Source of the DNA: Candidatus Portnoybacteria bacterium CG02_land_8_20_14_3_00_45_8
GTDB lineage: Bacteria > Patescibacteriota > Minisyncoccia > Portnoybacterales > GWB1-42-6
Assembly (NCBI GenBank): GCA_002780785.1
Contig: PEUE01000031.1
Span: 1-10,882, forward strand
DNA: 10,882 nucleotides
Direction of reading: 5' to 3'
Part shown: piece after piece, positions 4,458 through 9,643 of the stretch
Numbering within the stretch: the first letter of the stretch is position 1
Layout: the number at the start of each line of letters is the position of its first letter
Made by a program: the position numbers and the translations under genes
Notes under the pieces: generated by a model
Databases searched by the model: none
Seen by the model: only the letters and a program-made list of their open reading frames with translations
Told to the model about the DNA's origin: nothing

Positions 4458-4883
4458 TCACATTATACCACTGCTGCCAAATCTTGCTTCGCCGCGGTTT
4501 GTTTTAGAAAGTTTATCGACCTCTTTTATTTGAGGGGTCTCCATTTTTTGCACTAAAAGCTGGGCGATTTTTTGGCCTTTTTTTATTTCAAAATTTTCTT
4601 GGCTTAAATTTACCAAACCAATAAGATATTCGCCTGTATAGTTGCTGTCATACACGCCGCCCAATGTCTTTATGCCGAATTTATGCGAAAGACCGCCCTT
4701 ATCCCAGATTAAACCCACGCAACCCTTAGGAATTTTAATGGCCAGGCCAGTTCGGCAAGAAATTCTCTGACCGGGTTTTAAAACCGCGTTTTCAATAGCA
4801 TATAAATCCATACCGGCATCCCCCGCCCGGCTAAAAGCCGGCAGTTTTGCCTTAAGTGTTAATTTTTTAACGAGTATTCTCAT
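4458..4883 (-). CDS. dut: Trimeric dUTPase-family protein
   Basis: dUTPase hydrolyses dUTP to dUMP and pyrophosphate, keeping uracil out of DNA and feeding dUMP to thymidylate synthesis. The 141-residue protein shows the five family motifs in order: I, AGDAGMDL (20-27); II, WDKGGLSHKFG; III, LGGVYDSNYTGE; IV, KKGQKIAQLLV; V, RGEARFGSSG at the C-terminus. Motif II departs from the usual PRSGLA: Arg is Lys and the phosphate-contacting Ser is Gly. Motif V has AR in place of GG. Its ATG overlaps the end of the upstream kinase gene by 17 nt (…ACTCGTTAA), a coupled arrangement. dCTP deaminases share this fold, but the motif III Asp-Ser-x-Tyr and the full motif V favour dUTPase. Confidence 0.85.
   Translation of the reverse strand: MRILVKKLTLKAKLPAFSRAGDAGMDLYAIENAVLKPGQRISCRTGLAIKIPKGCVGLIWDKGGLSHKFGIKTLGGVYDSNYTGEYLIGLVNLSQENFEIKKGQKIAQLLVQKMETPQIKEVDKLSKTNRGEARFGSSGIM
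4462..4470 (-). promoter_or_regulatory. Extended -10 promoter for glyA-folD inside the end of dut
   Basis: The minus strand reads TGGTATAAT, a perfect TATAAT preceded by the TGn extension, encoded by the last codons (Gly-Ile-Met) of dut. It lies 24 nt before the glyA ATG, predicting a leader of about 18 nt. No clear -35 is seen 16-18 nt upstream, which is acceptable for an extended -10. Confidence 0.5.
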
Positions 4884-5421
4884 TGACTATTTTATCTAAT
4901 TGCACATATAAATCTTCGGGCGACCCGTTATTGTCTATCAAAAAATCGGCGTGATTTTTTAAATCACCGATCTGCAGTTCAGATTCGCTGACGTGCTCTT
5001 TTTTGAAATCACCAAGGGTCTTTTGAGCATCGTCCGTATTTTCCCCTCTTTTAACTATACGCTCATGGCGTCTCTCCAGTTCTGTTTCAATATACACCAA
5101 TTTAAATTCCGGCAATCCGCTTAAATATTTTATATCGGCCAATCGGCGAACTCCGTCAATCACCACAATCTCGGCTGTATCTTTTTTGACATCCTCCGCC
5201 ATAACGCCGGCTAACAAATCATCGCTAAAATTTTTCCGTAAAATAGTGGAAAGTTTTTGTATGTTCTCACGCGATTGTTCCAGACACAGCCGGTCCAACA
5301 CATCGCGTAAAATCGTTGAAAAACGAAAAGAGCCGGCGTCATATTTTTTAACTAAATACTTGACGGCAGTTCCTTTGCCGCAAGCCATTTCTCCGGCTAA
5401 ACTCAAAATCAATTTTGCCAT
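4867..5421 (-). CDS. P-loop NMP-kinase-like protein (UPF0200/dephospho-CoA-kinase-like)
   Basis: The 184-residue product begins MAKLILSLAGEMACGKGTA, with a Walker A-type loop at 10-18 (Lys16). IVVIDGVRRLADIKYL (85-100) looks like the Walker B/substrate strand, and KLVYIETELERRHERIVKRG followed by NTDDAQKTLGDFKKEH (about 107-143) looks like a lid. A C-terminal ADFLIDNNGS (158-167) follows. This order (DGVR, RRHERI.KRG, TDD, ADF.I.NNG) matches the UPF0200/dephospho-CoA-kinase-like group of small P-loop kinases as I remember it; the substrate of that group is not established. A TTG three codons upstream (5430) is in frame, but the ATG gives the natural P-loop N-terminus. Position between thyX and dut suggests, without proving, a nucleotide substrate. 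It is not a clear match to Tmk, Cmk or CoaE. Confidence 0.75.
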   Translation of the reverse strand: MAKLILSLAGEMACGKGTAVKYLVKKYDAGSFRFSTILRDVLDRLCLEQSRENIQKLSTILRKNFSDDLLAGVMAEDVKKDTAEIVVIDGVRRLADIKYLSGLPEFKLVYIETELERRHERIVKRGENTDDAQKTLGDFKKEHVSESELQIGDLKNHADFLIDNNGSPEDLYVQLDKIVNENTR

Positions 5422-5437
5422 AAATTTCAAAATTAAA

Positions 5438-5475
5438 GGGCTTTCTGTTGTTTTTTATCTTACAACAGAAAGCCC
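5438..5475 (-). terminator. Strong hairpin after thyX, probable intrinsic terminator
   Basis: A perfect 14-bp stem (5438-5451 with 5462-5475, arms GGGCTTTCTGTTGT and ACAACAGAAAGCCC) encloses a 10-nt A/T-rich loop. In minus-strand transcription it starts 6 nt after the thyX stop and is followed by TTTAATTTT, a moderate T tract. It ends 16 nt before the kinase ATG, so it would reduce read-through from the deaminase-tmk-thyX group into kinase-dut-glyA-folD. Confidence 0.6.
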
Positions 5476-5485
5476 CTTGAATCAA
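5457..5485 (-). promoter_or_regulatory. Possible promoter for kinase-dut, overlapping the thyX stop and hairpin
   Basis: On the minus strand TTGATT (5480-5485) and TAAGAT (5457-5462) are separated by exactly 17 bp; each matches its consensus at 4/6. The -35-like box overlaps the thyX TGA and the -10-like box lies in the hairpin loop. The predicted start near 5450 leaves a leader of about 30 nt. Weak evidence, since both boxes are imperfect. Confidence 0.3.
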
Positions 5486-6864
5486 ACTTTTCTCAATGGA
5501 AAATAATCGCCTTTTTGGCGGACGGCGATGAGCCGGCCGCAATAACGCCCACCCTCCGCGCATTTACCGGTTCTGAAACAATATGGCTCTAGCGCCCGGG
5601 CGAAACGCGACTTTTTATTTTTTTCCAAAATTGCCGCCCGCAACGCGCGGCCCAAATGATAAATTTCCTCCTGCGCGCACCAGCAAAGCCGTTTATTCTG
5701 CTCATGCAATACCGCGTTAAGCGACCCTGATTTTTTATAACGAGCCATTGCTCCATATGGCGCAATGGCTTGGGCTAGCGAAAAAGGTAAACTCCGCGTC
5801 AAATCCATCCACTGCCACATTAAATCAAACGCTTCCCGACTAAGACCCAAGGATTTGGGCACCGGCGGTAAATAAAAATTGCCGGTAAGGCGCGGCCTGC
5901 CCCGTCTAATTGTCCGATGGCGCTGATCTTGCCCCATGCAAGCCAAAGAAAGTTCAACCTCGGTTTTGATATTGCCAACGGAATTATCCATCATTGACGG
6001 CAAAAAATGAAGCAAGTCCAATGGCCACATATCTTCGGGCTTTGGCTCCACAAAGCCGGATTCATCAATCTCAATCAGCTTAAAACCCGACTCCGAAATA
6101 ACCTGCGGATCCATCACATTTTTGATAAAAGAAAGATCACCGAAAGACGCTTTTTTATTCCGTTTAAACATATAAGCAATCTCCGGAAATCTTTCCAATA
6201 CCAGATATGCCATCTTTTGGGTAAAAAATAACGTCTCTGGGCTCCAGGCCGCTGCATACATCGCCGCTAAAGCCGAAAGGTTAACGGTGAAATCAAAACC
6301 AGTCGGGAAAATCGTAGAGATAAACACTCGCAGCTGTTCTTGAGCAATCTTTGGCGCATTGGTTTTAATGTAATCGTCGTTCGCAAAAGGCCGTTCTTGT
6401 CCGATAAAATTAGCTGCCATCTCCGTCGCCAAAACGATATTCTCTTGATAAATCCTAACACCTTTTTCTACAAAACCCATTACCGCTTTTCTTTTAGCAA
6501 AACATAACCTTGGCCAAAAAATCTTAATATACGCCTCAATCTCAGCCAGGTCCGGCTCAACAAACATCTTGGCGCAAAAACGCCCGCTCCGCTGGTCGGA
6601 ATTATAAAAAGGACTGACCAGATGCATGCCCAGTGTAATCGCAGAAACCCCCAGCCCTTCAACATTAAAAGTAAAGAAATAATGTTGAAGCGTAGTATGG
6701 TGGCCAGTGCCAAATAGCCGATTTTCAACATCAATCACCTTGCCAAGTTCCGGTGGCTCTGACTGATAACATTCCAGCGCCGCGTGACTGGCTAAGGCCA
6801 AAAAATCGCTATTCGCTTGGCCATTCACAATTTTTGTTGCCGCAAGTAATTTTACGCTTATCAT
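5482..6864 (-). CDS. thyX: Double-length ThyX-family protein (flavin-dependent thymidylate synthase-like)
   Basis: ThyX uses FAD, NADPH and methylene-tetrahydrofolate to methylate dUMP to dTMP, releasing tetrahydrofolate. Ordinary ThyX is about 220 residues; this is 460, and both halves resemble one. First half: GHHTTLQHYFFTFNVEG (54-70), then FYNSDQRSGRF (86-96) in place of the RHRxxSxNxxSxRY signature, then FDFTVNLSALAAMYAAAWSPE (190-210), where the catalytic LR and AQxE residues are lost. Second half: GQDQRHRTIRRGRPRLTG (311-328) keeps RHR but not the serine of the signature, and KRLCWCAQEEI (391-401) keeps the Arg, AQ and Glu. The C-terminus carries Cys429, Cys435 and Cys442. The start has a strong Shine-Dalgarno inside the tmk end. 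Location between tmk and dut supports a thymidylate role. Family call firm, catalysis inferred. Confidence 0.85.
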   Translation of the reverse strand: MISVKLLAATKIVNGQANSDFLALASHAALECYQSEPPELGKVIDVENRLFGTGHHTTLQHYFFTFNVEGLGVSAITLGMHLVSPFYNSDQRSGRFCAKMFVEPDLAEIEAYIKIFWPRLCFAKRKAVMGFVEKGVRIYQENIVLATEMAANFIGQERPFANDDYIKTNAPKIAQEQLRVFISTIFPTGFDFTVNLSALAAMYAAAWSPETLFFTQKMAYLVLERFPEIAYMFKRNKKASFGDLSFIKNVMDPQVISESGFKLIEIDESGFVEPKPEDMWPLDLLHFLPSMMDNSVGNIKTEVELSLACMGQDQRHRTIRRGRPRLTGNFYLPPVPKSLGLSREAFDLMWQWMDLTRSLPFSLAQAIAPYGAMARYKKSGSLNAVLHEQNKRLCWCAQEEIYHLGRALRAAILEKNKKSRFARALEPYCFRTGKCAEGGRYCGRLIAVRQKGDYFPLRKV

Positions 6865-6866
6865 CT

Positions 6867-7487
6867 CTACTCCCTCCTTTTTTGATTATCGGCTAAAACC
6901 GATAAAATTTTCTGATGAATTTCTTTAATACTTTTTTCGCCATCAATCACCTTAATGTCTGAAAATATCTTTATAATTTCTCCGTAATTTTGAGCAATTT
7001 TTTGCAGTTTTTCCATTTTTTCAAAAAACTGCGCGCCCTGGCCTCGTCGATTAATCCGACTCATGCAAACCTCCGGTCGCACTCGCAAAAAGAATGTCTG
7101 ATCGGGATAAATAAATTCATCGTTCATTTGGACTAATTTATCTATTGACGTATCTAATCCGCCAAAAGCTATCGTGGAAAAAAAATAACGGTCGCAAATC
7201 ACAATTATCCCTTGGCGCAACGCCGGTATAATTTCCCTCGCTAAATGCTCGGCCCTATCCGCTACAAATAATTCCTGAAGTTTTAAAGGAGCTATGCTTT
7301 CTTTTTCGTCTAAAATTTCTTTAATTCTCCTTCCGTCCTTCGTCCAGAGAGTCGGCTCTTTTGTTAAAAACACCCTTCTGCTTTGCGTTAAAAAATATTC
7401 TTTTAGCAGCGCCGCTTGGGTACTCTGACCTGAACCATCCAATCCCTCAAAAACGATAAATAATCCGCCGTAAGAATTTTTTTTCAT
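6867..7487 (-). CDS. tmk: Thymidylate kinase family protein with Gln in the Walker A lysine position
   Basis: Tmk phosphorylates dTMP to dTDP. The 206-residue length is typical. FIVFEGLDGSGQSTQ (10-24) is the P-loop, but the invariant Lys is Gln21 (codon CAG). LTKEPT (41-46) corresponds to the TREPGG region, LFVADRAEH (73-81) to the helix before the DRY motif, and ICDRYFFSTIAFGG (97-110) holds the dTMP-site Asp-Arg-Tyr. RINRRGQGAQFFEK is the lid region and FSDIKVIDGEKS the final strand. All other motifs look intact, so this is probably a real family member rather than a decayed gene. It lies 23 nt after the deaminase gene and 2 nt before thyX, so it is cotranscribed with both. dTMP kinase activity is likely but the Gln leaves doubt. 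Confidence 0.9.
   Translation of the reverse strand: MKKNSYGGLFIVFEGLDGSGQSTQAALLKEYFLTQSRRVFLTKEPTLWTKDGRRIKEILDEKESIAPLKLQELFVADRAEHLAREIIPALRQGIIVICDRYFFSTIAFGGLDTSIDKLVQMNDEFIYPDQTFFLRVRPEVCMSRINRRGQGAQFFEKMEKLQKIAQNYGEIIKIFSDIKVIDGEKSIKEIHQKILSVLADNQKRRE
6870..6877 (-). promoter_or_regulatory. Strong Shine-Dalgarno for thyX inside the tmk end
   Basis: GGAGGGAG lies 5 nt before the thyX ATG and is built from the last codons of tmk (Arg-Arg-Glu). It fixes the thyX start. It is the only strong Shine-Dalgarno in the minus-strand gene set; most other starts here lack one. Confidence 0.8.
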
Positions 7488-7510
7488 GCACTATCCGTAA
7501 AAATTATTTC

Positions 7511-8026
7511 TTATTGCCTTGAATAATTTTCAACATTTTTGTCAATAATAACGAGTTTTACGCCCGCTCTTTTAAATAACTCCAAAGAAAGCTTATCGGC
7601 GTGATATTTTTTCTGCGCCACCACCCTTTTTATGCCCACGCGTACTATTCTCATAGCGCAATTATAGCAAGGCGTCATCTTGCAATAAAGCGTCGCACCA
7701 CCAATCCTAGTGCCGTCTTTTGCGCCCTGCAAGATAGCGTTCTCTTCCGCGTGCAAGGTGCGAACGCAATGTTGGGACTCGTTGCCTTTTTCATCAAGCA
7801 CTTTCCTCATCAAATGCCCCGCTTCATCACAATGCGGCTGGCCGGGCGGCGAGCCGACATAACCGGTAGCCAGAATAGTGTTTTGTGAGCTAACAATTAT
7901 CGCTCCGCTCCTGCCCCGATCACAAGTAGCCCGTTTGCTAATTCCATCCAGCAATCCCAAAAAATATTCATCCCAATTTGGCCTTTGATGATTATTTGAC
8001 TTTCTTGATCTTTTGTTTTTTGGCAT
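7511..8026 (-). CDS. dCMP deaminase (ComEB-type, zinc-dependent)
   Basis: The enzyme deaminates dCMP to dUMP, the substrate of thymidylate synthase. From ATG 8026 the product is 171 residues. RPNWDEYFLGLLDGISKRATC (15-35) is the usual dCMP-deaminase N-terminus. GAIIV and ATGYVGSPPGQPHCDE follow; this region carries a His-Cys often used for an extra zinc in the family. LHAEENAIL (91-99) has the zinc His92 and proton-shuttle Glu94, and TPCYNCAM (118-125) has zinc ligands Cys120 and Cys123. A GTG three codons upstream (8035) is in frame; ATG is preferred. First gene of the thymidylate block, 23 nt before tmk, with a plausible promoter between it and the terminator upstream. The catalytic set is complete. 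Confidence 0.94.
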   Translation of the reverse strand: MPKNKRSRKSNNHQRPNWDEYFLGLLDGISKRATCDRGRSGAIIVSSQNTILATGYVGSPPGQPHCDEAGHLMRKVLDEKGNESQHCVRTLHAEENAILQGAKDGTRIGGATLYCKMTPCYNCAMRIVRVGIKRVVAQKKYHADKLSLELFKRAGVKLVIIDKNVENYSRQ

Positions 8027-8049
8027 ATTTTTCACTTAGCCGTTTCTAC

Positions 8050-8235: not shown

Positions 8236-8658
8236 TTATTCCACTTTTATACCCATAGAACGAGCTGTTCCTTCTATTATTTTACAGGCCTGCTCAACAT
8301 CATTGGCGTTTAAGTCCGTCATTTTTTTCTCGGCAATGGCGCGAATTTGCGCTCGCGAAACTTTACCAACTTTTTCTTTTAAGGGATTGGCCGCGCCTTT
8401 CTCAATACCGGCGGCTTTACGCAATAAATCAGCCGCCGGCGGAGTTTTGAAAGCCAGGTCGTAGGTTCGGTCTTCGTAAATTGTCACTTCCACCGGAATA
8501 ATATCGCCGATGTTGTTTTTCGTGCCGTCGTTAAAACGCTTGCAAAATTCCATCAGATTCAACCCGTAAGGACCCAGGGCCTGACCGACTTTTTGACCGG
8601 GCGTGGCCTGGCCAGCCGGCAACTGCATTTTTAATTTGTTTTTAACTTTTTTAGCCAT
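8236..8658 (-). CDS. rplK: Ribosomal protein L11 (uL11)
   Basis: L11 binds the GTPase-associated centre of 23S rRNA and, with the L7/L12 stalk, serves elongation and release factors. The 140-residue length is normal. The N-terminal domain has [19 protein letters not shown] (8-26) and [12 protein letters not shown] (32-43); the C-terminal RNA-binding domain has [32 protein letters not shown] and [11 protein letters not shown]. In the segment that is usually ANPxPPVGPALG, the prolines at positions 22, 23 and 26 are Gln, Lys and Gln. These are the proline-rich helix positions tied to thiostrepton-type antibiotics. The usual downstream neighbour rplA (L1) is absent here; a second rplK tail and a terminator follow instead. 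Cotranscribed with nusG and the gene between them. Confidence 0.96.
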
Positions 8659-8665
8659 GGCAATA

Positions 8666-8696
8666 AGTAAACCCGTGAACAGGTAAATAAGTAAAC
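8666..8696. repeat. Inverted repeat, rplK-side arm (four octamers)
   Basis: The arm reads as four consecutive 8-mers of consensus NGTAAACM: AGTAAACC, CGTGAACA, GGTAAATA, then AGTAAAC plus C. It matches the reverse complement of the 9073-9102 arm at 26 of 31 positions with one gap. Confidence 0.75.
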
Positions 8697-8706
8697 CAGT
8701 TTAGAA

Positions 8707-9072
8707 TTAATTTTTCTGAATATGATAATTAATAAAACCGTTTAATAATTTGCCTGTTTCACTTCGTTTCAAGTTTAGTTCTTTATGTTTTTCGTTACTA
8801 AGATACTTTAATCTATGCGCTAAATCAATATAATATTCTAGCTCTGCCAAAGAACCCTTAGCAATGTAGTAAAATTGTAATCGTTCTCTTTTATTGTTTC
8901 TGCTATAACCTTCAACAATATTAGCCGGGACAGAAACGGCCGCGCGCCTCATCTGGGAAGTCAAACCAAATACTTCTTCTCTCGGGAAATTCCCGGTATG
9001 TTTATAAACTAAAAATGTCAGTTCGTCGGCCTTCTGAAATAAACTTAACTTTTTGTAACCTGCCCCCTCCAT
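8707..9072 (-). CDS. Four-helix-bundle protein, 23S rRNA intervening-sequence (S23/IVP) type
   Basis: The 121-residue product has the family pattern: YKKLSLFQKADELTFLVYKHTGNFP at 6-30, FGLTSQMRRAAVSVPANIVEGYSR (35-58) and ERLQFYYIAKGSLAELEYYIDLAHRL, a run that marks the S23/TIGR02436-type four-helix bundle. Related proteins are encoded in intervening sequences of 23S rRNA genes in spirochaetes and others; their biochemical role is not settled, though a nucleic-acid-binding pentamer is plausible. The ATG follows directly on the inner end of the inverted repeat, so there is no Shine-Dalgarno upstream; no other in-frame start gives the conserved N-terminus. The stop is 10 nt from the other repeat arm. 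The protein is intact and full length, so it appears maintained. Avd of diversity-generating retroelements shares the fold, but no reverse transcriptase is here. Confidence 0.9.
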   Translation of the reverse strand: MEGAGYKKLSLFQKADELTFLVYKHTGNFPREEVFGLTSQMRRAAVSVPANIVEGYSRNNKRERLQFYYIAKGSLAELEYYIDLAHRLKYLSNEKHKELNLKRSETGKLLNGFINYHIQKN

Positions 9073-9102
9073 GTTTACTTGTTTCTTGTTTACGTGTTTA
9101 CT
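9073..9102. repeat. Inverted repeat, nusG-side arm (four octamer-like units)
   Basis: On the minus strand the arm reads AGTAAACA, CGTAAACA, AGAAACA, then AGTAAAC: three octamer units and one 7-nt unit. Its outer end includes part of the nusG TAG stop codon, and its inner end touches the ATG of the four-helix-bundle gene. It is complementary to 8666-8696. Confidence 0.75.
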
Positions 9103-9643
9103 AGATTTTCTTCACTTGTAAAAAGTCCAATTCCACCGGCGTTTCGCGGCCAAACAGAGAGATTAAAATTTTCACCCGACCTCGCTCCTCATCAATCTCC
9201 GCCACTTTGCCGTCCGTATCTTTGAAGGGGCCATCGGTTATCTTAACCGAATCACCCAGCGCAATGTCAATTTTATACTTGGGTTCCTCAATGCCCATAC
9301 GCTTTTGCAAGTCCTTTATCTCTTCGGGCGAGACAGGAGTGGGAGTGGTGCCCGAACCCACAAAGCCGGTCACGCGCGGAGTATTGCGCACCACGTACCA
9401 GGAATCATCCGTCACAACCATTTCTACCAGCACATAGCCCGGATAAATTTTTTCTTCCACCACTTTGCGTTTGCCTGCTTTGATTTTAATTTTTCTCTCG
9501 GTCGGCACTAAAACATTGAAGATTTTATCTTCCATGCCCATGGATTCAATACGTTGGCGCAAATTGCGCGCCACCGCTTTTTCATACCCCGAATAAGTAT
9601 GCAACACATACCAGTTCCGACCCCGAGAAACTTGTTTAGCCAT
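9101..9643 (-). CDS. nusG: Transcription termination/antitermination factor NusG
   Basis: NusG binds the RNA polymerase clamp to increase processivity and links it to Rho or the ribosome. The 180-residue length is typical. The NGN domain starts at NWYVLHTYSGYEKAVARNL (10-28) and includes VLVPTERK, KIYPGYVLVEMV (65-76) and VVRNTPRVTGFVGSG (84-98). After a linker (PVSPEEIKDL), the KOW domain runs from about 128 with GDSVKITDGPFKDTDGKVAEID and ends VELDFLQVKKI. It lies 6 nt after secE, the conserved bacterial secE-nusG pair. The last codons and stop touch the inverted repeat of the four-helix-bundle cassette, and rplK follows that cassette. No Shine-Dalgarno is visible. Confidence 0.97.
   Translation of the reverse strand: MAKQVSRGRNWYVLHTYSGYEKAVARNLRQRIESMGMEDKIFNVLVPTERKIKIKAGKRKVVEEKIYPGYVLVEMVVTDDSWYVVRNTPRVTGFVGSGTTPTPVSPEEIKDLQKRMGIEEPKYKIDIALGDSVKITDGPFKDTDGKVAEIDEERGRVKILISLFGRETPVELDFLQVKKI

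Follow-up and report, generated by a model that had tools for sequence, protein, structure and literature searches.

The window, by which we mean the whole 10,882-nt stretch analysed here (contig PEUE01000031.1 of a Candidatus Portnoybacteria genome), carries between nusG and rplK a gene of the S23/IVP family, a family otherwise met in the intervening sequences (IVSs) of rRNA, and this gene is enclosed by inverted repeats. The locus therefore raises the question of whether the enclosed gene is a settled member of a ribosomal-protein operon, part of a regulatory stem, or an element inserted there. Genomes are referred to below by G-numbers (G000 being the genome of the window) and fetched loci by L-numbers.

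The S23 cassette at the nusG-rplK junction

The open reading frame (ORF) between nusG and rplK belonged to PF05635 (23S_rRNA_IVP; E 6.4e-36, 123.2 bits against a cut-off of 33.8) and to TIGR02436 (four helix bundle protein; E 5.3e-34, 116.7 bits against a cut-off of 24), and its product matched XCC0516 in PDB entry 2gsc (E 1.1e-17). The inverted arms, of 29 and 30 nt, were identical at 26 of 30 positions in an alignment that needed one gap, so that the initial description of an intact S23/IVP gene whose inverted repeats fill the junction was correct (Table 1). Each arm was built of an 8-nt tandem unit, GTAAAC plus two bases (GTAAACAA-like). The arm score of 35 exceeded all 119 shifted-flank controls (maximum 26), and the upstream arm ranked its own partner first among 90 downstream flanks; a generic repeat search of the window missed the arms, the gap being the probable reason. 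S23 was the sole gene between the arms, no gene for a transposase, reverse transcriptase or endonuclease being found in the cassette, and PADLOC gave no match. The nusG stop codon shares its last base with the outer end of the upstream arm, and the cassette stops just short of the rplK start, so that neither protein is altered.

Table 1. Features at the nusG-rplK junction of the window
Feature	Position	Strand	Matches and remarks
S23/IVP four-helix-bundle gene, intact, 121 aa	8707..9072	-	PF05635, TIGR02436, PDB 2gsc matches
Upstream arm	9073..9101	-	GTAAACAC GTAAACAA GAAACAA GTAAAC; 8-nt tandem units, one short
Downstream arm	8667..8696	-	GTTTACTT ATTTACCT GTTCACGG GTTTAC; upstream array in inverted copy
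nusG, upstream host gene	9101..9643	-	PF02357; stop codon at cassette edge
rplK, downstream host gene	8236..8658	-	PF00298/PF03946; start 8 nt past cassette

Elsewhere in the window, next to the L11 operon, positions 4458-8035 carry what by reading is a dTMP synthesis cluster, with adjacent genes for dUTPase-like, kinase-like and ThyX-like proteins, for thymidylate kinase and for dCMP deaminase.

By alignment and RNA folding, the terminal inverted repeats can form a stem like that of an rRNA IVS, at a location that is not an rRNA gene. When the minus-strand RNA was folded, as the sequence-only reading had proposed, the arms paired at the base of the structure, while the overall energy was no better than that of shuffles (z -0.96; 19 of 100 shuffles folded as well). 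The same reading had suggested that RNase III cutting of such a stem tunes rplK relative to nusG. The pairing of the arms across the junction, the RNase III gene present in this genome and the excision of the Coxiella IVS by RNase III, as given in the accessible part of PMC4990558, are all in keeping with such tuning, and the junctions of related genomes speak against it. The rplK gene was found in 54 genomes and the junction was fetched for 39, one of which had no nusG, leaving 38 examined. S23 cassettes occupied five of these, with three arm types (GTAAACAA in G000, GACTACC in G002 and G010, CAGTTTAT-like in G004 and G006), and the other 33 had none. The gene is thus not carried here by all relatives, a pattern on which the sequence-only reading had staked its mobile interpretation. 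The closest relatives by rplK without an ORF at the junction, G007 (86% identity) and G005 (76%), have gaps of 50 and 45 nt, and at the window's own site the closest empty relative has only 86% rplK identity. A conserved regulatory stem at nusG-rplK was rejected on the 33 junctions without S23; together with the variable occupant of the junction they make a conserved regulatory role, and with it the tuning of rplK, unlikely, while the cutting itself may happen.

The occupant indeed differed between genomes. Three junctions carried a GxxExxY gene (G003, G008 and G012; TIGR04256 in G003 and G008, PF13366 in G008, by reading in G012), and G008 has the same 86% rplK identity as G007. These GxxExxY/PDDEXK_3 inserts have, by reading, inverted ends of the type AGAAGCAAATTTACGC / GCGTAAATTTGCTTCT and represent a second ORF family with the same habit. 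The junction of G043 held a GIY-YIG gene (PF01541), a third ORF family, between inverted hairpin ends (ends by reading). No gene was recognised in the other 29 junctions, of which 21 had gaps of <30 nt; those of G015, G029, G031 and G033 look by reading like ORF-less hairpins or palindromes, that of G015 being filled by a near-perfect palindrome, GGGTCAGACCTTGAGGAGACGACCTTAAGGTCG... The nusG-rplK junction is tolerant of hairpin inserts.

Inverted arrays of short units around S23 genes

Five S23 genes of the window's genome scored over the cut-off, and they were flanked on both sides by inverted arrays of 7-8-nt units that differed from gene to gene (AGTGATA at C44, CTCAAAA-like at C30, AAAATTC-like at C37:4003); at C37:5691 (L006) the array was clear upstream only. 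A profile search found S23 matches in 42 of 55 genomes, in 40 of them over the cut-off. It returned 100 rows over the cut-off and 14 below, of which 93 and 1, respectively, were used, the seven unused over-cut-off rows being partial or near contig ends. From the 94 loci fetched, four were left out of the arm test for a short flank or a run of N, so that 90 were tested; L057, which is mis-framed, was kept in the counts.

Across these 90 loci the mean score of own arms was 37.4, against 18.6 for permuted partners (sd 0.55; 10,000 permutations, maximum 21.1). The 99% point of the shifted controls was reached by 74 loci, which disposes of the possibility, raised by the sequence-only reading against itself, that inverted repeats are absent around other family members, and in 64 loci none of 200 Markov shuffles equalled the real arms. 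The own partner ranked first in only 36 of the 90 because some units are common to several cassettes. Identity at lag 7 was 0.43 upstream and 0.40 downstream, compared with 0.273 in 297 control segments, and 7 was the best lag in 61 upstream and 49 downstream flanks. Among the 16 loci below the 99% control line, L053, L057 and L118 are truncated or mis-framed. A subgroup of the 16 (L048, L050, L052 and L104) has a conserved upstream flank without clear inverted arms. Chance complementarity of the arms was ruled out by the shifted and permuted controls. Three-frame stop codons were considered as the cause of the 7-nt period and showed a mild excess only (upstream 94/167 against 72.4 expected, downstream 66/168 against 56.2 expected).

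The same arrangement was found in a scan of named genomes, for which the best 80 of 584 confirmed S23 loci were taken and two were dropped for short flanks. By record titles, the best 80 of the 584 span Bacteroidota, Chloroflexi, Acidobacteria, Planctomycetes, Omnitrophica, Deltaproteobacteria, Nitrospirota, Verrucomicrobiales, Elusimicrobia, Bacillota, CPR groups and others. In the 78 loci retained from these best 80, own arms scored 36.7 against 16.6 (5,000 permutations, maximum 19.3), the own partner ranked first in 43, 50 scored at least as high as the 99% point of all mismatched pairs, and identity at lag 7 was 0.41 on both sides.

The unit thus differs between cassettes, and the two arms of one cassette mostly match. 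In 17 pairs of loci at the same site in different species, own arms had a mean score of 41.6 and cross-species arms 25.1. Cross arms equalled or exceeded own arms in L051/L111, L120/L127, L034/L101 and one direction of L046/L047, either because both cassettes use one unit or because their arms are weak. In a Hymenobacter pair (L205/L212), S23 is kept at one site with units that are unrelated by reading; the arm score of L205 is only 19, since its downstream array falls inside the reading frame, ahead of the downstream window. Both arms of a cassette therefore mostly turn over together.

Arrays of these units also occurred without a gene. The sequence-only reading had called for a search of the genome for its repeats, and the window's genome matched a pattern of three window units, with up to 3 mismatches allowed, 7+4 times, compared with 1+1 for the reversed pattern. 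Four of the 11 were the window's own arms, and the seven outside the window had no S23 gene: four overlapping matches at C19, where positions 2402-2475 form a hairpin of the window's unit with ftsE and prfB (by reading) as its neighbours, and incomplete arrays at C10, C18 and C27. With up to 2 mismatches the pattern was found in 5 of 55 genomes, namely G000, G004 with a local inverted array, and G007, G010 and G044 with one or two scattered sites each. The AACTGATA unit was limited to five genomes, all of the family of the window's genome; S23 cassettes with this unit were present in G004 and G006, and none was seen in G001, G003 and G008, though arrays of the unit were present. Sharing of units between solo arrays and resident S23 cassettes is weak. 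An AGTGATA pattern search of the window's genome was matched 13 times by its reversed control as well. Long perfect AGTGATT arrays lie at G000:C48:7-55 and C58:6187-6256, one of them at a contig start, and may have broken the assembly.

In cyanobacterial plasmids, a 172-nt ORF-less hairpin at positions 884-1055 of L258, where it interrupts an S23 gene, has heptamer arms like those of the cassettes L242 and L243. It matched at 85 places in 42 plasmid records, of which short matches may be cassette arms, and 28 of the 42 records hold at least 80% of it; the hairpin has the look of a MITE-like family. ORF-less hairpins with the same unit therefore exist beside cassettes.

Heptameric repeats are over-represented in bacterial genomes, as stated in the accessible part of PMC4692102, and the ORF-less arrays show that they occur in the genomes analysed here too, as would be expected if the arrays were general slippage-prone intergenic repeats near which S23 genes tend to land. 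We regard this explanation as very improbable. The arrays stand in inverted register on both sides of S23 and are cassette-specific, shifted segments of the same loci have no lag-7 signal, and the empty sites described below are free of arrays, which come with the gene.

Filled and empty sites

Movement was sought among relatives of the window's genome by DNA alignment of locus pairs with mostly 600-700 nt of flank available. Across the whole S23 gene 49 pairs aligned, and in 35 of them the alignment extended no more than 100 nt on both sides. In 33 of these cassette-limited pairs the two loci have no flanking-gene cluster in common (two of these pairs involve a locus that lies outside the clustering). 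In 25 of the 33 the aligned DNA reaches at least 40 nt upstream and 30 nt downstream and so takes in the arms. As an example, L123 (G016) and L125 (G018) have 116 of 119 residues identical and 86% DNA identity over 492 nt with different neighbours, and L121, at the same junction as L125, matches L125 at 64 of 112 residues. Upstream genes fell into 13 clusters comprising 31 of 93 loci, the other 62 being single. S23 cassettes thus occupy many unrelated junctions.

Cyanobacterial plasmids were examined as well. An S23 match was present in 31 plasmid records, of which 12 were fetched (L240-L243 and L264-L266 from S23 matches; L248, L255, L256, L258 and L259 from later searches); phage records gave no S23 match. 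Five plasmid sites were found both filled and empty, with 85-98% identity between the filled and the empty form. At site 1, the cassette is present in L242 and L248 (Trichormus, Scytonema) and absent from L244-L246 (Aulosira, Nostoc carneum, Tolypothrix), which are ~97% identical to the filled loci and have the junction sequence AAAAAGTAATTAAC; in the filled loci GTAAT stands on both sides of the insert as an exact 5-bp duplication, and Nostoc C052 (L247) retains, by reading, a truncated cassette copy. At site 2, L240 and L241 are filled and L249-L251 empty (~90% identity). At site 3, L243, L258 and L259 are filled and L252-L254 empty (~91% identity); the insertion point lies behind the TA of the stop codon of the upstream gene, so that TAG becomes TAA, and a probable duplication of TTCTA differs in one base. 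In another plasmid of the L243 strain (L255) the site-3 junction is empty and a different cassette, with ~45 extra nt on its right side, lies in the next junction of the same operon. At site 4, L256 is filled and L260-L263 are empty (91-93% identity); the insert interrupts the upstream gene within its final codons and provides a stop codon for it, and no target duplication was seen. Target duplication is thus unambiguous at one site only (GTAAT, 5 bp). L264 carries a cassette antisense between two ribonucleotide reductase genes, absent from the 85% identical L267. The cassette of L266 is also antisense, and its relative L268, without S23, has a spacer too divergent to place the junction. The resolved empty sites have no arrays, which arrive together with the S23 gene. 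At several plasmid sites, therefore, the cassette is either there in its entirety or missing.

On a plasmid of Pseudanabaena galeata (L265, positions 1270-1965), S23 lies between cas6 and cas4 with long AAAAGCT/AAAAGCC arrays on both sides that look partly direct rather than inverted. IVP genes occur in cas loci according to the accessible part of PMC3936711, and such occurrences may reflect insertion of S23 cassettes.

These sites bear on whether S23 is a stable ordinary operon gene whose arms have been retained by selection as a stem with a regulatory or processing role. A stable host gene would account for several observations: most loci have an intact S23 gene, 31 of 93 have an upstream gene in common with another locus, own arms outscore cross arms on average at the 17 same-site pairs, and by a crude longest-frame criterion S23 runs in sense with both neighbours in 71 of 94 loci and antisense to both in one. 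It would not account for empty sites at ~97% identity, for the 62 of 93 upstream neighbours that are unrelated to one another, for homology limited to the cassette, or for insertions in a coding end (L256), in 16S rRNA and in antisense orientation. An ordinary conserved operon gene was rejected on the empty sites, and selection for the arms as part of such a gene appears quite improbable. In relatives of the window's genome the cassette is almost always in sense with its neighbours, a bias that we read as selection for co-transcription. In the wider set (the best 80 of the 584 scanned, same crude criterion) both neighbours were sense in 46 of 78 loci and both antisense in 6. The antisense copies (L264, L266 and these 6) indicate that host-transcript sense is not required, and argue against strictly RNA-templated insertion.

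If the cassettes are mobile, they might be non-autonomous passengers of a known transposase or reverse transcriptase, with S23 as cargo or accessory factor. S23 is related to Avd, an accessory protein of reverse transcriptases: the S23 of the window matched bAvd (PF22296, E 3.7e-13), and scored 50.9 bits with DivGenRetAVD, below that model's cut-off of 80. One empty site with a 5-bp duplication recalls known transposases, ORF-less hairpins are dispersed too, a Y1-transposase match (E 2.4e-6) lies at C27:2121 in the window's genome, and Y1 transposases and reverse transcriptases occur in 32 and 20 of the 55 genomes, respectively. Against this, neither PF00078 nor PF01797 was matched in nine of the 42 S23-matching genomes (in one of the nine the S23 match is below the cut-off), including G029, G039 and G045, which are 100% complete, and a Y1 transposase is thus not obligatory for S23 cassettes. 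S23 was present in 16 of 20 genomes with reverse transcriptase and 26 of 35 without, so that no link between the two was seen across the 55 genomes, and the window's genome, 76% complete, had no match to the reverse transcriptase PF00078. Two Avd-like genes were found next to a reverse transcriptase: arms are absent from L147 (score 18) and borderline in L146, whose score of 26 exceeds the 99% line, so that the contrast is weak. We consider the passenger explanation possible but doubtful. Taken together, these observations favour a mobile cassette in which no transposase is recognisable, with S23-bearing intervening sequences representing its form in rRNA, and we put the probability of this reading at about 70%.

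Relation to rRNA intervening sequences and other repeats

The sequence-only reading had taken the insert for the same kind of element as an rRNA IVS, placed in an mRNA, and for an exception to residence in 23S rRNA. The rRNA location of the 94 relatives' loci was judged by reading, with Rfam applied to L055 and the window, and one of the 94 was recognised in an rRNA gene. That locus, L055, has its S23 cassette within a 16S rRNA gene of the same orientation; the match to RF00177 spans the full model, and the arms score 52. Kinship with the rRNA element is supported by this locus, by insertion as a unit and by the anatomy of the Coxiella burnetii IVS, while the non-rRNA position proved to be the usual one rather than exceptional. 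As described in the accessible part of PMC4990558, the IVS at helix 45 of Coxiella 23S rRNA has tandem heptamers (GACAGAT) ahead of the S23 start and a 28-bp terminal stem, and is removed by RNase III. Its likeness to the cassettes, on the same part of that paper, extends to a single S23 ORF, a length of ~430 nt and terminal inverted repeats, and it was termed selfish there. The window cassette differs in lying in a protein operon with arrays on both sides, and empty sites, solo copies and a broad spread are added here, for cassettes known from their DNA sequence. In CPR bacteria, rRNA insertions with 23S_rRNA_IVP ORFs in 16S and 23S are given in the accessible part of PMC11270868, a survey that in that part covers rRNA genes with a focus on homing endonucleases.

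In our proposal, the window segment would be a mobile cassette of ~435 nt with one S23 gene between inverted arrays of a cassette-specific 7-8-nt unit. The S23 protein of Xanthomonas is a homopentamer of four-helix bundles, and Avd of diversity-generating retroelements binds nucleic acids. The S23 protein may recognise the hairpin of its own array and recruit host or resident enzymes, which would copy the cassette into new sites using a short staggered cut. Within the transcript the arms would pair, and RNase III could cut the stem and leave the flanking cistrons or the rRNA usable, which would make the insertion nearly harmless. S23-bearing rRNA intervening sequences would be the same element in rRNA. 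To a wider proposition we give roughly even odds: that S23 cassettes form a pan-bacterial mobile class with self-matching heptamer-array ends and no recognisable transposase, have seeded much of the heptanucleotide-repeat excess of bacterial genomes and have rRNA IVSs as their copies, with recognition of the own unit and renewal of unit and arms together.

REP/REPIN-RAYT systems consist of a gene-bearing unit and ORF-less hairpins that share its end sequence. The S23 cassette and its ORF-less hairpins would by analogy resemble REP hairpins and their transposase gene, but the window cassette has no Y1 transposase ORF, the one Y1 match lying elsewhere in the genome, and the ends of S23 cassettes are 7-8-nt arrays that differ per cassette. 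Heptanucleotide repeats of cyanobacteria are named STRR. The TAACTGA repeats of Beggiatoaceae are 7-nt tandem units, intergenic and often just ahead of start codons (accessible part of PMC4679880), and these and STRR share the tandem intergenic 7-nt unit with the arms of S23 cassettes; inverted pairing around a gene is a feature of the cassettes and is not described for those repeats in the part of the source covered. The term 'S23' is absent from PMC4679880 and PMC4692102 as far as their accessible text goes. The arms of L181, L198 and L226 (CAGTTAT/TGTCAGT type) resemble the TAACTGA repeats that the same part of PMC4679880 places in Beggiatoaceae, Cyanobacteria and Bacteroidetes, and those repeats may be traces of S23 cassettes.

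In the open-licence PMC literature searched, no work was recognised that describes S23 genes in inverted heptamer arrays outside rRNA, or that joins rRNA IVSs, IVP genes in cas loci and heptamer repeats. S23 cassettes look like an unrecognised class of mobile element related to rRNA intervening sequences. The S23/four-helix-bundle family is widespread and has no known function in the literature covered. The filled and empty plasmid pairs in culturable cyanobacteria offer exact, testable sites, and genes annotated 'S23 ribosomal protein' or found in cas loci could be reread as insertions. If the proposal is true, one class of element would join the function of S23, the origin of rRNA intervening sequences and the origin of bacterial heptamer repeats.
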